A stretch of DNA of 21,898 nucleotides from positions 1 through 21,898 of IMG/VR virus record IMGVR_UViG_3300037628_000367. The stretch is one strand, 5' to 3'. The stretch is from a virus. The translations under genes were made by a program, and so were the position numbers. Below, in pieces: positions 1,201 through 19,863 of the stretch (position 1 is the stretch's first letter; the number at the start of each line of letters is the position of its first letter). Under the pieces are notes generated by a model. The model did no database searches. It saw only the letters and a program-made list of their open reading frames with translations, and was not told the DNA's origin.

Positions 1201-1515
1201 ATGGACCTAGAAAAGAAGGTATCGCCGAACGTTATCAGGGCCGCGTGCCGGGGCCGATTCTATTCGGCACTTGAGACTCTTTCCGAGCTTGCGGCCGACC
1301 CGGATACTAAAGACGCGGATAAGATACGCGCTATCGATACGTTGGGCCGGTTCGGCCTAGGTGCGGCCGACCAAGGGGCCGTCCACATACACGCCGGCGA
1401 CGGTTCGACGGTGTTGGGTGTCGTGCACCTGCCGGCCCTTGAGGTTGCCGACGATACGCCGGCCGACGTTGCGCCTAGCGGGCCGGATGGCCCCAAGCTA
1501 TTGACTAGCGGCTAG
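1201..1515 (+). CDS. Hypothetical helical phage protein, 104 aa
   Basis: The ATG at 1201 is preceded by a GGATGGGG purine stretch that can serve as RBS. The first 60 residues are predicted mainly helical: one helix around residues 8-32 (N-V-I-R-A-A-C-R-G-R-F-Y-S-A-L-E-T-L-S-E-L) and a second around 38-54 (D-A-D-K-I-R-A-I-D-T-L-G-R-F-G-L-G). The rest is a proline/alanine/aspartate-rich low-complexity tail. The helical pair followed by G-L-G resembles short phage proteins of the kind sometimes called terminase-small-subunit-like, but no DNA-binding motif is evident and I leave it unassigned. It is the only + strand gene of region 1 and is divergent from the leftward unit. Codon use (GGCC-rich, CTA leucines) matches that unit. 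Confidence 0.7.
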   Translation: MDLEKKVSPNVIRAACRGRFYSALETLSELAADPDTKDADKIRAIDTLGRFGLGAADQGAVHIHAGDGSTVLGVVHLPALEVADDTPADVAPSGPDGPKLLTSG

Positions 1516-3008: not shown

Positions 3009-3189
3009 CGGGCGGGTTCTCCACGTAGATCGGGAAGCAGAAGTTCGGGGTGCTATCTGGGGCGACGTTCAGTGGCCAGTGCGGGTTCGCGAGCTTCCTG
3101 TTCTGGTCGGCGACCGACTGGAGGTTCGCTGCGCTCGCCCAGCCGATCAGCACCCGGGGCTTGGTCGTGTCCTCGCAGGGCTTGCTCAT
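2998..3189 (-). CDS. Hypothetical protein, 63 aa
   Basis: A longer frame reaches 3384 but runs antiparallel in codon sense through the DUF3307 gene, which is better supported. The ATG at 3189 overlaps the stop of that gene as ATGA, so I use it. The 63-aa product begins M-S-K-P-C-E-D-T-T-K-P-R-V-L-I-G-W and contains S-A-A-N-L-Q-S-V-A-D-Q-N-R-K-L, then ends in an F-C-F-P-I-Y-V-E-N-P-P stretch. No TM segment or known motif is visible. The SD is weak (GGGTGG), fitting coupled translation. Function unknown. Confidence 0.6.
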   Translation of the reverse strand: MSKPCEDTTKPRVLIGWASAANLQSVADQNRKLANPHWPLNVAPDSTPNFCFPIYVENPPDEM

Positions 3190-3527
3190 AGCAGCGCCAC
3201 CCAGAGGAGCTTGCACGCGACGTGCAGCGCCTGGTCGGTGTGGATGCCGGTCCAGTTCTCGCACTTCGCGAAATCGATCACCCAGTGGATTCCAGCCTCG
3301 GCCAGGCCCATCCACCACACACCCGTGATCAGGCTCACAGCCCCACCATGGATCAGCGCGTGGCTCGTCAGCCAGTAGGGCCAAACGGTCATCACCTTCT
3401 GGCCGCGTGGGATCTTCGTGATGTCCACGATGGTGTTCCGGTTCTTGCCCTTCGCCATGTCGGAAGTCTGCAGCGCGAAGTCCGCGAGCGCGTGCCCCGC
3501 GATCAGGTAGAAGAACGTCTCAATCAT
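3186..3527 (-). CDS. DUF3307-type integral membrane protein, 113 aa
   Basis: The ATG at 3527 has a strong GGAGGAGG RBS and overlaps the upstream stop as ATGA. The protein resembles the DUF3307 family: an N-terminal hydrophobic segment with the signature G-H-A-L-A-D-F-A-L-Q-T-S (residues 11-22, conserved H, D and Q), a basic loop M-A-K-G-K-N, then W-P-Y-W-L-T-S-H-A-L-I-H-G-G-A-V-S-L-I-T (second hydrophobic segment with an H-x-x-x-H pair), and G-I-H-W-V-I-D-F-A-K plus a last hydrophobic helix after T-D-Q-A-L-H-V-A. Three or four membrane helices are likely. Family members occur in bacteria and phages; their biochemical role is not known to me. It sits in the middle of the leftward operon. Confidence 0.75.
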   Translation of the reverse strand: MIETFFYLIAGHALADFALQTSDMAKGKNRNTIVDITKIPRGQKVMTVWPYWLTSHALIHGGAVSLITGVWWMGLAEAGIHWVIDFAKCENWTGIHTDQALHVACKLLWVALL

Positions 3528-3709
3528 CGGGGGTCCTCCTCCCGGGGCGCGGGGATCACACCCAGGATCGGATACTCCGATTTGAGCCAGGCATTGAAGG
3601 CCTCGGCCGGGTTCGGCTCGCCCTTCTTCTCCGTCGCGTCGAGGGCCCACTTTCCACCCTCATGGAACGCCGACCACAATAGGTGCCTGAGTTCCTCAAG
3701 GAGCCTCAT
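3524..3709 (-). CDS. Hypothetical protein, 61 aa
   Basis: The start at ATG 3709 is chosen because of a GAGGAGG RBS immediately upstream; the longer form from 3763 has only an Arg/Thr-rich extension. The product begins M-R-L-L-E-E-L-R-H-L-L-W-S-A-F-H-E-G, an amphipathic helix, and continues with A-E-A-F-N-A-W-L-K-S-E-Y-P-I-L-G-V-I-P-A-P-R-E-E-D. The stop overlaps the DUF3307 start as ATGA, and the start lies 14 bases inside the upstream gene. The amphipathic helix may contact the membrane, perhaps with the DUF3307 product, which is speculation. No family recognised. Confidence 0.65.
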   Translation of the reverse strand: MRLLEELRHLLWSAFHEGGKWALDATEKKGEPNPAEAFNAWLKSEYPILGVIPAPREEDPR

Positions 3710-4363: not shown

Positions 4364-4666
4364 ATGAAGCACAATCGAAGGGGATTCTTCCGAATGCTGC
4401 TGGCAGCTCCCGCTGCCGCTGCCATAGCCGCTGGGCTCTACAAGCCTCGGCCGACGTGGACTCCGCTCAACCTGAAGTACACGAAGATCATGGGCACGAT
4501 GGAGATCACGCCCGAGGCCTACAAGGCGGTCTACGGTGGCGGCCGTGGTGGTGGGAACTTCGCAAGGCTGCTGATGGAGACCCTGCAGAAGCATCAGGAG
4601 GACATGAACAGATTCTATGGCTTCCACAGGGCGGCCATGGGTGACGATATTGGCGTCAGGGGGTAG
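4364..4666 (+). CDS. Small Tat-signal exported protein, 100 aa
   Basis: The ATG at 4364 is preceded by an AGGGGGG RBS. The N-terminus is a twin-arginine leader: N-R-R-G-F-F-R at residues 4-10 followed by a hydrophobic Ala-rich h-region (M-L-L-A-A-P-A-A-A-A-I-A-A-G-L) to about residue 25. A cleavage site is not obvious. The mature part has L-N-L-K-Y-T-K-I-M-G-T-M-E-I-T-P-E-A-Y and a Gly-rich loop G-G-G-R-G-G-G-N, then a helix A-R-L-L-M-E-T-L-Q-K-H-Q-E-D-M-N-R-F. This would place a folded product across the inner membrane or anchored in it. Function is unknown; the G-rich loop is not a P-loop. A second Tat-leader protein is encoded at 5397-5651. Confidence 0.65.
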   Translation: MKHNRRGFFRMLLAAPAAAAIAAGLYKPRPTWTPLNLKYTKIMGTMEITPEAYKAVYGGGRGGGNFARLLMETLQKHQEDMNRFYGFHRAAMGDDIGVRG

Positions 4667-5115: not shown

Positions 5116-5400
5116 ATGCCCTCGCACACCCCAGCAGAGCGGGCCAAGAACCGCCCAGCTCGCGATGCCCAGAGACGCAGGAACACCGCGAAGGTCGCCA
5201 AGTCCGCGATCAAAGGGCAGCCACCCAGGTCGGCCACGGCAGGCCTCGTTGTAGGCCCCCTCCTGGGTCCAACCAGGGGCGCTGCGGCGGCGAGGACGGG
5301 ACGGGCCATGAATGCCCGCGCCGCCAGGGCGATCAGGGCACCCAGGAACTCTCCCCCGATGAGTAGCCTCGACAACGTGGGCGGCATCAGCGGGCGATGA
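5116..5400 (+). CDS. Basic alanine/arginine-rich protein, 94 aa
   Basis: An AAAGGAGG RBS with ideal spacing selects the ATG at 5116 over an upstream alternative at 5038 that would start inside the terminator region. The N-terminal 40 residues are highly basic (R-A-K-N-R-P-A-R-D-A-Q-R-R-R-N-T-A-K-V-A-K). A short apolar segment follows (A-G-L-V-V-G-P-L-L-G-P), then another Arg/Ala-rich run (A-A-A-R-T-G-R-A-M-N-A-R-A-A-R-A-I-R). The apolar segment is too short to be a sure TM helix. Nucleic-acid binding or membrane association is possible; no family is recognised. The stop overlaps the next start (ATGA). Immediately downstream of the candidate structured RNA. Confidence 0.6.
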   Translation: MPSHTPAERAKNRPARDAQRRRNTAKVAKSAIKGQPPRSATAGLVVGPLLGPTRGAAAARTGRAMNARAARAIRAPRNSPPMSSLDNVGGISGR

Positions 5401-5651
5401 TCCGCAGGACGTTCATCAAGCGGTTCTCCGCTGGAGTCCTCGGCTGTGGTATGCTGGCCGACGCCCTCCTCTCTCGCGGACCCACGATGATGGTGGCCGA
5501 GACCGATATGCCCGTGGCCTCGGCACGCTTCATCCCGGAGCATCGGCGCATCGACGTCGGCCCTCGGGTCCGCAACCGCGACGACATGGAGCACAAGTTC
5601 GAGCGCGGCCACGGGGTGCTCTACGTCAACGGCCTCCCTGACTATGGCTAA
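5397..5651 (+). CDS. Small Tat-leader protein, possibly lipoprotein, 84 aa
   Basis: The ATG at 5397 overlaps the previous stop as ATGA; there is no clear SD, so coupling is likely. The first residues M-I-R-R-T-F-I-K-R-F fit the twin-arginine consensus (R-R-x-F-I-K) and are followed by a hydrophobic region with G-V-L-G-C17, a possible lipobox for lipid attachment, and M-L-A-D-A-L-L. The mature part has A-R-F-I-P-E-H-R-R-I-D-V-G-P-R-V, N-R-D-D-M-E-H-K-F-E-R-G-H-G-V-L-Y-V-N-G-L-P-D-Y. No enzyme motif is visible. Together with the product of 4364 it forms a pair of phage Tat-leader mini-proteins, both of unknown role. Confidence 0.65.
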   Translation: MIRRTFIKRFSAGVLGCGMLADALLSRGPTMMVAETDMPVASARFIPEHRRIDVGPRVRNRDDMEHKFERGHGVLYVNGLPDYG

Positions 5652-6237: not shown

Positions 6238-6876
6238 GTGCTTCCATCCTCTCGGGCGCAGTGGATCTTCCAGATCGTGGTCCTCGCCATCCTGGCTGTC
6301 GTAGGCCGGAACTACTTTACGGCCAGCGCGGAGGCCAGGCTCTTGGCTGACCAGCTCGAAGTCGCGCTCGACAGCGTTGAGGTGGCCGTCGATGCCCACG
6401 AGTTGGAGATCGCCAAGAGTGACAGTCTGATCGCCCTCCAGGACTCAGCGCAGGCGGCGGACACCGCAGCCGTCAACGCGGTGGCGGCGGTCTCCGACGA
6501 GACCGCCAGCGAGACGGCGAGAGCACTGGCAGAGGCCAGGGAGGCGGCTGCAGGGTTACCCGTCGTTCAGGCGGCTCTGGACCGGGCAGAGGAGGCCCTG
6601 GCCGCTTCTGAGGAAGCTCGCCTGGAGGAGAGGTCCACGAGTGCGGCGGCTCTCTTCGGGTCACAGCAGCGGGAGCGCACACTCGGGCTGCAGCTCATCA
6701 GCGAACGCACGACGGCCTCCACGGAAATCACCCGACTGAACACGGCCCTGAGTCTCTCCATGCAGGAGGCTATGGCCTGGCAACGTGCAGCTTCCCCAGG
6801 GGCCCTGACACAGATTTGGAGACAGGGGAGGGCCGCCGTTGTGGCCGTCATCCTCGTCACAGTAATCAGCAACTAG
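6238..6876 (+). CDS. Membrane-anchored coiled-coil protein, 212 aa (Rz/i-spanin-like)
   Basis: A GTG at 6238 follows directly on the TAG of the two-TM gene. Residues about 9-22 (I-F-Q-I-V-V-L-A-I-L-A-V-V-G) form an N-terminal TM helix. Then comes a long Ala/Glu-rich region (residues about 30-185) with heptad-like spacing (L-A-D-Q-L-E-V-A-L-D-S-V-E-V-A-V) predicted as coiled coil. The end has a second apolar segment (A-A-V-V-A-V-I-L-V-T-V-I). N-terminal TM plus periplasmic coiled coil is the shape of inner-membrane spanins (Rz-like), but length and the C-terminal apolar helix are atypical, and no outer-membrane partner was identified. A tape-measure-like or scaffolding role is less likely given the position before TerL. 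Confidence 0.6.
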   Translation: MLPSSRAQWIFQIVVLAILAVVGRNYFTASAEARLLADQLEVALDSVEVAVDAHELEIAKSDSLIALQDSAQAADTAAVNAVAAVSDETASETARALAEAREAAAGLPVVQAALDRAEEALAASEEARLEERSTSAAALFGSQQRERTLGLQLISERTTASTEITRLNTALSLSMQEAMAWQRAASPGALTQIWRQGRAAVVAVILVTVISN

Positions 6877-6884
6877 GAGTAGGC

Positions 6885-7172
6885 ATGAGAGACGCAACAA
6901 TCGAAGAGACGATGTCCGATCAGAAGGAAGAGGCACCCCACCAGGCCGCTTCACGGCGTCTGCGGATCCAGGCCATCGAGAAGTTCTTCGCGCCGGTCGT
7001 GATCAAGAACGGCACCAGGCAGAAGTCCTCCATCGAGACGATCCGCGAGCGGTGCCGACTGCTCGCCCTGGCGATTGAGGACCACGTCCCTGAGGGTGAC
7101 CAGAAGGGGGTCGCCCGCCAGAAGTGTGCCGAGGCGATGTTCTGGGCGAACCAGGCCATCAGCCATCGGTGA
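6885..7172 (+). CDS. Acb2/Tad1-type helical-hairpin protein, candidate anti-CBASS cyclic-nucleotide sponge, 95 aa
   Basis: The ATG at 6885 has an AGGAG RBS just upstream, and its TGA overlaps the GTG of terL. The N-terminal 25 residues are polar. The rest matches the short helical hairpin of the Acb2/Tad1 hairpin family: one helix with S-S-I-E-T-I-R-E-R-C-R-L-L-A-L-A-I-E-D-H (residues 48-67), the turn V-P-E-G-D-Q-K, and a second helix A-R-Q-K-C-A-E-A-M-F-W-A-N-Q-A-I-S (77-93). Family members often carry the same (I/L)-x-x-(T/H)-(P/V)-P-x-x-x-x-(K/S)-x-x-A-x-x-K-x-x-E-A-x-x-W-A-N-x-A-I pattern. Acb2 proteins bind cyclic di- and trinucleotides and block CBASS defence. Binding-site residues cannot be checked without alignment, so the activity is inferred. 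Confidence 0.62.
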   Translation: MRDATIEETMSDQKEEAPHQAASRRLRIQAIEKFFAPVVIKNGTRQKSSIETIRERCRLLALAIEDHVPEGDQKGVARQKCAEAMFWANQAISHR

Positions 7173-8695
7173 CTGAGGGCGTCGTCTGGGCTCCGAACAG
7201 CGAGCCCCAACGTCAGTTCTGTGCGTCCACCGAAACGGAGGTCCTCTACGGTGGAGCGAAGGGCTGCGCGAAGTCGGACGCCATCCTGTTCGCGTCCCTC
7301 TCGCAGGTTCACCTGCCGCGCTACAAGGCGCTGATCCTTCGGCAGACCTTCCCGGAAGTCCAGGAGCTGATCGACCGCAGCGCGTTCGCGTTTCCCCAGC
7401 TCGTGAACGCGCCAAGCTGGAAGGGCGACCTCAAGCGGTGGACCTTCCCAGGCGGCGGCATCGTCCAGTTCGGGTACTGCAGCACGAAGGAGGAGGTGCA
7501 GCGATACCACGGGCAGGAGTGGGCCTACATCGGATTCGATGAGGTGGGTGACGTCGCGGACGAGAACGTGTGGGTCATGCTCATGGCCGAGAACCGCTGC
7601 AAGAATCCCGAGGTGATCACGATGATGCGCGGCTCCGCGAACCCAGGGAAGCCGGGCCACCCGTGGATCAAGAGGCGGTTCATCGACAAGTGTGGGAAGA
7701 AGGGCGAGAAGATCTATCGCTTCACCCACCAGATGCCTGCCTACGAGGATATGCCCGCCATGGAGGCGTCGATCACCAGGCGCTTCATCCCGGCTCGAGT
7801 CACGGACAACCCTGTCTACGCGACCGACGCCATCTACATGGCCAAGCTCTTCAGCCTCCCGGAGATGCTCCGTCGCCAGCTCCTCTACGGGGACTGGGAC
7901 GCCGGCTTCGGCATGGGCCTGGACGAACTGAACGAGGACGTCCACATCCTGCAGCCCTTCGGCATCCCGCCCAACTGGGTCCAGTTCGGATCGTTCGACT
8001 GGGGCTACAGCCATCCGTGGGTGTTCGGGCACTACTGCGCGGACGAGGACGGGGTGGTCTACAAGGTCAACACCTACCGTGGCCGCCTCATGTCGGATCG
8101 GGTGATCGCGGAGGCCATCAACCACCACGTCGATGTCTCGGCTCTCCGTTACATCGTCGCCGGGCACGACTGCTGGTCCCACCACAAGGCCCGCCTGGAT
8201 GACGAGACCCCGTCCACCCAGGAGCGGTTTGCGGATGCGCGGATCTTCCTGACCCATGCGTCCATCGCTCGGTACGCCGGGCTCAAGAATCTGCGAGAGA
8301 TGGTCGCTTGGAAGGGCATCATCCCGAATCCCGACGGAGGCGATCCCTTCGACGGCGAGCCCAACCTCTACTTCATGGATACGCCGGGCAACCGGAAATG
8401 CTTCACGTCCCTGGAGATGATGGTCACCAACCCCGAAGACCCCGAGGACGTCCTCAAGCGGGACGCCGATGCGATCACGGGTGAGGGTGGCGACGACGAC
8501 TACGACGAGACGCGCTACGCGCTGGCCTCCCGCCCCGGCCGCGCCAAGACCAACTGGAAGGAGCAGGAGGTCAGGGCCTTCAGCAAGGCCACCCTGCTGC
8601 ACGAGATGGAGAAGCGCCGGCACACCTCCGGGCCGCTCACCAGGTCGATCATGGAGCAGGAACACGACCTCATGGTGGACGGGATGGTCCAGTGA
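7169..8695 (+). CDS. terL: Terminase large subunit (ATPase/nuclease), 508 aa
   Basis: I choose the GTG at 7169 because it overlaps the previous stop (GTGA). The N-terminal ATPase shows the Walker A-like loop G-G-A-K-G-C-A-K-S (residues 28-36), in which the usual Gly before Lys is Ala, and Walker B Y-I-G-F-D-E (120-125). A coupling-motif-like segment R-G-S-A-N-P-G-K-P-G-H-P-W follows near 155. The C-terminal nuclease has acidic residues at expected places: F-G-S-F-D277-W-G-Y, G-H-D334-C-W and D-Y-D446-E-T-R-Y-A-L. The protein packages DNA by docking on the portal and cutting concatemers. The portal is encoded 4 kb downstream. No classical small terminase gene precedes it. Confidence 0.9.
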   Translation: MTEGVVWAPNSEPQRQFCASTETEVLYGGAKGCAKSDAILFASLSQVHLPRYKALILRQTFPEVQELIDRSAFAFPQLVNAPSWKGDLKRWTFPGGGIVQFGYCSTKEEVQRYHGQEWAYIGFDEVGDVADENVWVMLMAENRCKNPEVITMMRGSANPGKPGHPWIKRRFIDKCGKKGEKIYRFTHQMPAYEDMPAMEASITRRFIPARVTDNPVYATDAIYMAKLFSLPEMLRRQLLYGDWDAGFGMGLDELNEDVHILQPFGIPPNWVQFGSFDWGYSHPWVFGHYCADEDGVVYKVNTYRGRLMSDRVIAEAINHHVDVSALRYIVAGHDCWSHHKARLDDETPSTQERFADARIFLTHASIARYAGLKNLREMVAWKGIIPNPDGGDPFDGEPNLYFMDTPGNRKCFTSLEMMVTNPEDPEDVLKRDADAITGEGGDDDYDETRYALASRPGRAKTNWKEQEVRAFSKATLLHEMEKRRHTSGPLTRSIMEQEHDLMVDGMVQ

Positions 8696-9090
8696 GCGAG
8701 AACCTGGCCAACGGTGTTCTGTCACTCGCCATCGTCGGATGGGCGGCGGCGTTCTTCGCTATCTCGATGTGGTGGTCTGAGAGGCGGATGCGGATCTTCG
8801 TCCATAACTACACGACCTTCGGAGGCACCCCGCTGAAGAAGGCCAGGGTCTTCGCGCCGCCCGACGAGGAGCAGGTCCTGGAGACGGCCCTCGACCGTAT
8901 CGAAGGGATCGCCAACACCAAGGTGAGCAGGCAGCCCACCCCCGAGGACGCGAAGTTCACTGCTGAGACCCTCGACAACGGGGTCCAGTGGCTCATGGCC
9001 CAGGCGCGTGAGCAGGGGTCAATGCTGACCGTCGAGCAGGCGACGGAAGAGGCCGAGAGGATGTTGAATGCCGAAGGAACCGAGATGTGA
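8692..9090 (+). CDS. Single-TM protein, 132 aa
   Basis: A GTG at 8692 overlaps the terL stop (GTGA) behind a GGGATGG sequence. Residues about 9-28 (V-L-S-L-A-I-V-G-W-A-A-A-F-F-A-I-S-M-W-W) make a strong TM helix followed by basic S-E-R-R-M-R, so the C-terminal 100 residues are probably cytoplasmic. That domain has V-F-A-P-P-D-E-E-Q-V-L-E-T-A-L-D-R-I-E-G-I and two amphipathic helices (D-N-G-V-Q-W-L-M-A-Q-A-R-E-Q-G and V-E-Q-A-T-E-E-A-E-R-M). I do not recognise the family; its position between terL and an HTH gene suggests a small phage accessory protein. Confidence 0.65.
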   Translation: MSENLANGVLSLAIVGWAAAFFAISMWWSERRMRIFVHNYTTFGGTPLKKARVFAPPDEEQVLETALDRIEGIANTKVSRQPTPEDAKFTAETLDNGVQWLMAQAREQGSMLTVEQATEEAERMLNAEGTEM

Positions 9091-9373
9091 GATGGCGACG
9101 TACACCCTGAGGGCACCGCTGCTCAAGCCCTTCACGACCATGGAGACCCTGGTCACGGCGCTGCTGATCCGGGGCGAGGGCTACGCGGCAATCGCGAAGC
9201 GGCTCCACATCTCAAAGCAGGCCGTCGGCTTCCATTCCCGCAACGCGAGCAGGAAGATCCCGGGCGACTTGCAGCCCTTCGTCAGGATCCAGTTCTGGGG
9301 ACGCGGCGCGACCATCGACCAGCTCACGGGCGAGGGATGGATGCCTGGACCGCCGGGTGACGAGGATGTATAG
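9068..9373 (+). CDS. LuxR-type helix-turn-helix protein, 101 aa
   Basis: The ATG at 9068 is behind GAGAGG, and overlaps the end of the previous gene by 23 bases; an ATG at 9092 is an alternative start. Residues about 33-63 read L-I-R-G-E-G-Y-A-A-I-A-K-R-L-H-I-S-K-Q-A-V followed by G-F-H-S-R-N-A-S-R-K-I, a GerE/LuxR-type DNA-binding helix-turn-helix (I-A-x-x-L-x-I-S-x-x-x-V-x-x-H). Then comes P-G-D-L-Q-P and W-G-R-G-A, a pattern I associate with HTH proteins in environmental phages. There is no receiver or ligand domain. It could regulate late genes or, as it lies next to terL and no small terminase was seen, act in DNA recognition for packaging. The second option is speculation. Confidence 0.7.
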   Translation: MPKEPRCEMATYTLRAPLLKPFTTMETLVTALLIRGEGYAAIAKRLHISKQAVGFHSRNASRKIPGDLQPFVRIQFWGRGATIDQLTGEGWMPGPPGDEDV

Positions 9374-18901: not shown

Positions 18902-19444
18902 ATGATCGAACGCTTCATCGACATCCCAGTGGAGAAGGAGACGCCTGACCGGGTGCTCCTTCTCCTCCGGGAAGTCCACCCCATGGCCGAACTACTCTAC
19001 GTGGATCACGGCTGGTGGTGGGTCGGCATCGTCAAGCCGGAGGCCCCGGCTCGAGAGAAGGCCAGGCAGACCCTGGAACGAATGAGGGATTCGAAGACGG
19101 GGGTCATTGAAGAGAGGAAGTACGCCAAGGCCATCGTCCGTCGCTGGCGTCTCCAGGAGCAGGGCTTCGCGCTCTGCGGGAAGTATCGCTTCGGTGACGA
19201 GGGGCCCGACTTCGATGCTATCGTGAAGGACTTCACGTTCGCCGACTTCGTCTACAGGAACTGGGGAGCTGGGAACGAGAAGATCAGGGCGCAGATCGAT
19301 GAGTCCGGTGTTCTGGACGACGAGATGCGGCTCAAGGCTCGGGCAGCTACTGTGGAACGGTTGGCAGCCGATGAGCGATACCTGTTTACTCGACTGATTC
19401 GAAAGAATCCGCGACCTGTCACAGTGGGAGCTAACTTGACATGA
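18902..19444 (+). CDS. Hypothetical phage protein, 180 aa
   Basis: The ATG at 18902 lies one base after the preceding stop (TAGGATG). Residues 1-45 look like a small alpha/beta domain (M-I-E-R-F-I-D-I-P-V, then L-L-Y-V-D-H-G-W-W-W-V-G-I-V). A basic helical part follows (R-E-K-A-R-Q-T-L-E-R-M-R-D), then A-I-V-R-R-W-R-L-Q-E-Q-G-F, a possible Trp/aromatic segment F-T-F-A-D-F-V-Y-R-N-W and a charged C-terminus. No known motif. Its stop overlaps the next start (ATGA). Such a gene between capsid and connector genes is common in phages, but its role is unknown. Confidence 0.6.
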   Translation: MIERFIDIPVEKETPDRVLLLLREVHPMAELLYVDHGWWWVGIVKPEAPAREKARQTLERMRDSKTGVIEERKYAKAIVRRWRLQEQGFALCGKYRFGDEGPDFDAIVKDFTFADFVYRNWGAGNEKIRAQIDESGVLDDEMRLKARAATVERLAADERYLFTRLIRKNPRPVTVGANLT

Positions 19445-19863
19445 GCCATTTCGGACACAGGGTGATCGGCCGCACGAAGGCCGCCGAAGAAGCCGAGGTC
19501 GCGGCGACTGGGGCCGACCACTTCGGTCCTCGCGTAATCGGCGACGTCCTCGCCAAACGCAGGCTGCTGGCCCGTAAGGACGAGGGGGCGAAGGACAGCC
19601 GCAGAGATCCGTCCAAGAGGGCGAAGAAGGCGGCAACGCAGGAGCCGAAGGCCGAAGCCCCAGAGACACCCGTGACGACAAGCCTGGATGAACTGGAGGC
19701 TGCGCTCGACGGCAACGCGGAGTTCTACGAAGGGCTCTACAGCCAGGAGCTGCTACGGCCGGCGGGGCCGAGGAAGGGTGCCCTCCGGCTCTTCCTGAAG
19801 TTCGAGATGGGGCACGAGGACAGAGAAGACCGCAAGGCCGAGATCGAAGCCGCACTGAAATAG
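19441..19863 (+). CDS. Small charged protein with duplicated HFGxRVIG motif, 140 aa
   Basis: The ATG at 19441 overlaps the previous stop (ATGA). The octapeptide H-F-G-(H/P)-R-V-I-G occurs twice, at residues 3-10 and 27-34. A basic, Lys/Arg/Ala-rich linker (about 40-85) follows, then a helical C-terminal domain, S-L-D-E-L-E-A-A-L-D-G-N-A-E-F-Y, E-L-L-R-P-A-G-P-R-K-G-A-L-R-L-F-L and an acidic/basic end. The C-terminal pattern (L-x-E-L-E-x-A-L then a second helix with R-P-x-G-x-R-K-x-A-L) resembles short helical domains in other phage head proteins. The doubled N-terminal motif suggests two equal binding contacts. Function unknown. Confidence 0.6.
   Translation: MSHFGHRVIGRTKAAEEAEVAATGADHFGPRVIGDVLAKRRLLARKDEGAKDSRRDPSKRAKKAATQEPKAEAPETPVTTSLDELEAALDGNAEFYEGLYSQELLRPAGPRKGALRLFLKFEMGHEDREDRKAEIEAALK

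Follow-up and report, generated by a model that had tools for sequence, protein, structure and literature searches.

The gene at 6885-7172 of the window, that is, of the whole stretch of 21,898 nucleotides of viral DNA analysed here, probably encodes a sponge of the Acb2 type, which would sequester cyclic oligonucleotides (a probability of roughly 0.77 on our analysis). Its product of 95 amino acids is almost certainly a member of the known Acb2/Tad1 sponge family, and represents a divergent new member rather than a new kind of system. The small, all-helical protomers would most likely assemble into a hexamer, which would bind and hold cyclic oligonucleotides generated by host defence enzymes (CBASS and related systems), and suicide effectors of the CBASS type would thereby stay off during infection. 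An anti-CBASS activity, as put forward in the first-pass annotation, is plausible in view of the family. The features discussed below are the following:

6238-6876 (+): upstream neighbour of 212 amino acids, function unknown, conserved (comparison with relatives)
6876-6880 (+): Shine-Dalgarno-like AGGAG ahead of the ATG at 6885 (direct sequence reading)
6885-7172 (+): putative Acb2-type sponge gene, 95 amino acids, PF24729 hairpin at residues 46-92
6942-6986 (+): predicted short N-terminal helix, residues 20-34 (AlphaFold2)
6984-6995 (+): codons of F34, F35, A36 and P37, likely aromatic pocket segment (alignments)
7023-7163 (+): predicted helical hairpin, helix 47-67, P-E-G-D turn, helix 72-93 (PF24729 match, AlphaFold2)
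7044-7046 (+): codon of the invariant R54, in the column of Acb2 K26 and T4 K23 (alignments)
7098-7100 (+): codon of D72, aligned with the loop arginine R67 in P. aeruginosa phage Acb2 (alignments)
7169-8695 (+): terL, large terminase (phrog_979, E = 7.5e-39)

The open reading frame extends from the ATG at 6885 to a TGA at 7170-7172 and is preceded within a few bases by the AGGAG (ctAGGAGtaggcATG). The program-made listing begins this frame at a TTG (6816); the supported start is the ATG. A P-E-G-D element and an A-E-A-M-F-W-A-N-Q-A-I end had been described for the 95-residue protein, and both are present on reading the sequence, as part of V-P-E-G-D at residues 68-72 and as residues 82-92, respectively. 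Scans of viral contigs yielded homologues in six phage contigs at 50-84% identity, and over the last 76 codons dN/dS is mostly 0.2-0.4 (range 0.12-0.73); accordingly, the frame is a real gene. An antisense open frame of 601 codons (6920-8725, minus strand) lies opposite the sponge gene and terL, with similar ones in relatives, and most likely is a by-product of high-GC codon usage.

Three lines of evidence bear out membership in the hairpin family, as proposed at first sight of the sequence: a curated Pfam model, comparisons of profiles and the predicted fold. A failure to match any family profile had been named as a refuting result, and this outcome did not occur. The protein matches PF24729 (Acb2/Tad1 hairpin) at 34.8 bits (E = 1.9e-8), above the curated cut-off of 27 bits; the homologues of L001, L005, L006 and L007 also exceed this cut-off, and that of L008 falls slightly below it (25.6 bits). 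The same model matches T4 Acb2 (71.4 bits) and P. aeruginosa phage Acb2 (66.5 bits), and also covers the mycobacteriophage proteins Reptar3000 gp5 and Aminay gp3. A separate sponge-family profile was composed solely of known or candidate sponges, namely T4 Acb2, P. aeruginosa phage Acb2 and actinophage or prophage homologues, leaving out the phage group of the query. Against this profile the query scores 47.6 bits, compared with 12.0 bits for the best of 2,000 shuffles and 4.6 bits for the next-best open frame across the six frames of the window. Given these values and the PF24729 E-value, the family match is not due to chance.

Profile-profile comparison of the phage group with the sponge family gives a probability of 98.3% (E = 1.9e-14). 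Further matches are phrog_1454, a family of unknown function (E = 1.7e-11), and the solved chain 9ptq, “Acb2 homolog 43”, with E = 0.005 for the single sequence and 4e-10 for a 15-sequence profile. Neither R54 nor the E-A-M-F-W-A-N block varies in any of 15 homologues from phages and prophages. The N-terminal 45 residues align poorly with known Acb2 proteins, which counts against a sponge. PADLOC holds no model for this gene. The Pfam families DUF5421 and DUF5847 were rejected as identities, as their weak matches lie below cut-off, and a match to cyanophage S-2L (E = 0.03) falls in an unannotated gap.

AlphaFold2, run as a single-chain prediction on 15 sequences, places helices at residues 20-34, 47-67 and 72-93, the latter two being the helices that were expected on either side of P-E-G-D. 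The model has a mean pLDDT of 79 and a pTM of 0.65, with pLDDT above 90 over most of the hairpin, and supersedes an earlier model built on 7 sequences (pLDDT 68). It predicts the layout of Acb2 as defined previously (PMC10419184), a short N-terminal helix followed by an antiparallel helical pair. In a comparison with predicted viral structures, Acb2/Tad1 hairpin proteins make up most of the top matches, at modest E-values (0.009 at best). Searches of solved structures with both models by Foldseek and VIA-align returned only generic helical bundles among the matches listed; solved Acb2 chains were not among these, as can occur with a small helical hairpin, and we weigh this result neither for nor against the fold.

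Which ligands might be bound can be approached through individual residues. We take the aromatic Y11 and the basic K26 of Acb2 to serve the dinucleotide pocket, and the loop arginine R67 presumably serves the trinucleotide site. Numbering of Acb2 was checked against PDB chain 8h2j. R54 opens the first long helix, as do K26 in the P. aeruginosa phage protein and K23 in T4. The aromatic Y11 (Y8) of Acb2 pairs with F or Y in actinophage proteins; its equivalent here probably is F34 or F35, in a segment that contains a short insertion and aligns ambiguously, and F34 and P37 are invariant within the phage group. The loop-arginine column, where R67 of P. aeruginosa phage Acb2 lies in P-G-R, is occupied by D72 here, by D, P or A in the group, by R in the more distant L047, and by D in T4 Acb2. 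A loss of ligand-binding residues had been named as evidence against the family; the alignments give a divided answer, as the basic equivalent of K26 is kept and the loop arginine is replaced.

T4 Acb2, with D at this position, binds 3'3'-cGAMP (PMC11722364), and therefore the lack of the arginine alone does not abolish dinucleotide binding. Since T4 Acb2 is a family member without a loop arginine, the loss concerns specificity and not membership. Going by these residues, the dinucleotide pocket seems more likely to have been preserved than its trinucleotide counterpart, and because the loop is changed, dinucleotides would be the likelier ligands. A plausible picture is a sponge for cyclic dinucleotides that binds trinucleotides weakly or in an altered way.

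The genomic setting was compared across ten related contigs retrieved by terL. A hairpin homologue is present in nine of them, that is, in all with enough upstream sequence; the tenth (L041) starts 895 bases ahead of terL, too near to judge. In the window and its closest relatives, L001 and L005, the sponge gene adjoins terL, and the codons overlap; in the window, the GTG start of terL (7169) overlaps the sponge stop codon as GTGA. One other gene separates the two in L006-L008, and in L045-L047 the sponge gene lies 3.5-4.7 kb upstream of terL. Only about one third of the residues are identical in the L047 homologue, whereas terL identity drops only from 84% to 61% over the range of relatives. 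By this comparison, the sponge gene is retained almost throughout, changes faster than terL and has no fixed place relative to terL. Marine and spring podoviruses have the terminases most similar to that of the group. In the Mycobacterium phages Nairb and Aminay the hairpin gene adjoins the genes for the small and the large terminase, which are annotated separately, and in other named phages it is found far from terminase genes, beside genes for a ClpP-like protease or SSB. Expression together with the packaging genes had been proposed for the window; adjacency to terL holds there and fails in the distant relatives, and as the distance varies, the proposal amounts to a positional remark. The link of the sponge gene to packaging is positional only.

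These data also bear on whether the gene encodes the small subunit of the terminase or some other accessory of packaging, which we regard as improbable. A small helical protein directly before terL, with the overlap shared by L001 and L005 and a homologue in 9/9 informative relatives, would suit this role, and no terS profile match occurs anywhere in the window. Yet Aminay and Nairb possess the hairpin homologue beside a small terminase of their own, the gene is separated from terL in L006-L008 and L045-L047, and the protein matches the sponge family and no small-terminase family in Pfam, PHROGs or NCBIfam. A frame of 104 amino acids at 1201-1515 (plus strand), kept at 56-66% in L001, L005, L006 and L008 and devoid of family matches in profile searches, is a candidate for the missing small terminase. 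A Tad1-type anti-Thoeris function is very unlikely. The Pfam hairpin domain is common to Acb2 and Tad1, and the wider 15-sequence profile weakly matches Tad1 chains (E = 0.036). In Tad1, however, an N-terminal antiparallel beta sheet precedes the hairpin (PMC12043709), and AlphaFold2 predicts only helices and no beta strand in the 95-residue protein, its N-terminal region included; moreover, Tad1 chains comprise 123-138 amino acids. The layout is that of Acb2 and not of Tad1, so that nothing specifically favours an anti-Thoeris role.

A hairpin protein that has lost nucleotide binding and serves another role, e.g., as a protein-protein adaptor in head assembly, would explain why the loop arginine is missing across the phage group and why the unusual 45-residue N-terminal region carries invariant residues of its own (H19, R24, R25, F34, P37, G43, Q46). 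We nevertheless consider it an unlikely outcome, as the basic R54 of helix 1 and the E-A-M-F-W-A-N block are retained, and T4 Acb2 lacks the arginine as well and still binds cGAMP. A gene that occurs in every relative looks more like part of the core than like a counter-defence gene of sporadic occurrence, and this speaks against a sponge. A variant that we consider rather unlikely envisages an Acb2-derived sponge with hairpin loop and N-terminal segment rewritten to capture a signal different from those that known Acb2 proteins bind, as a near-core rather than sporadic gene.

Several other genes of the window deserve mention. Two genes past terL, a frame of 101 amino acids (9068-9373, plus strand) encodes a LuxR/GerE-type helix-turn-helix (PF00196, 25.6 bits, cut-off 23.5); it is conserved in the relatives searched and possibly specifies a late regulator or a DNA-binding packaging protein. 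The small proteins at 4364-4666 and 5397-5651 (plus strand) start with twin-arginine-like signals (MKHNRRGFFRMLLAAPAAAAIAAG; MIRRTFIKRFSAGVLG), which seem unusual for a phage; a match to Pfam TAT_signal is below cut-off, and the former protein is conserved in L001, L002 and L005. A short motif, G-[PHS]-R-V-[ITL]-G, recurs in several small proteins of these phages; the window protein at 19441-19863 (plus strand) has two copies, and the motif is also present in L042 (5122-5685), L043 (338-886), L044 (6415-6984) and L047 (2218-2964); in four relatives such a protein is encoded directly 3' of the sponge gene. A DUF3307 domain protein is encoded at 3186-3650 (minus strand; 29.9 bits, cut-off 23).

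With the Acb2-type sponge as the preferred reading, the Acb2 family is extended to an uncultured phage group. At the loop position presumed to govern trinucleotide binding, natural homologues differ (R, D, P, A, E), and a comparison among them can put ligand specificity to the test. In other respects the putative counter-defence gene is ordinary and well explained. Acb2 of P. aeruginosa phages (p26; 8h2j, 8ixz) and of T4 (Vs.4; 7uq2) resemble the protein in size (88-95 amino acids), in the short N-terminal helix with an antiparallel helical pair, in the Pfam domain and in the basic residue opening the first long helix. Sequence identity to both is low, with no significant pairwise match; the N-terminal region is longer here, the inter-helix insertion is absent, and the loop arginine of the Pseudomonas protein is replaced. 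Acb2 homolog 43 (9ptq) and the actinophage or prophage hairpin proteins (phrog_1454) share the P-x-G-x-x-K loop and the E-A-M-F-W-A-N-x-A-I-type block, and some actinophages likewise keep the hairpin gene close to terminase genes. In these proteins the loop mostly reads G-R-E-K, in contrast to G-D-Q-K, G-P-E-K or G-A-E-K in this phage group, and the N-terminal segment differs as well. Tad1 (7uav, 8kbe-8kbh) has the helical hairpin domain in common with the 95-residue protein, which lacks the N-terminal beta-sheet domain of Tad1.
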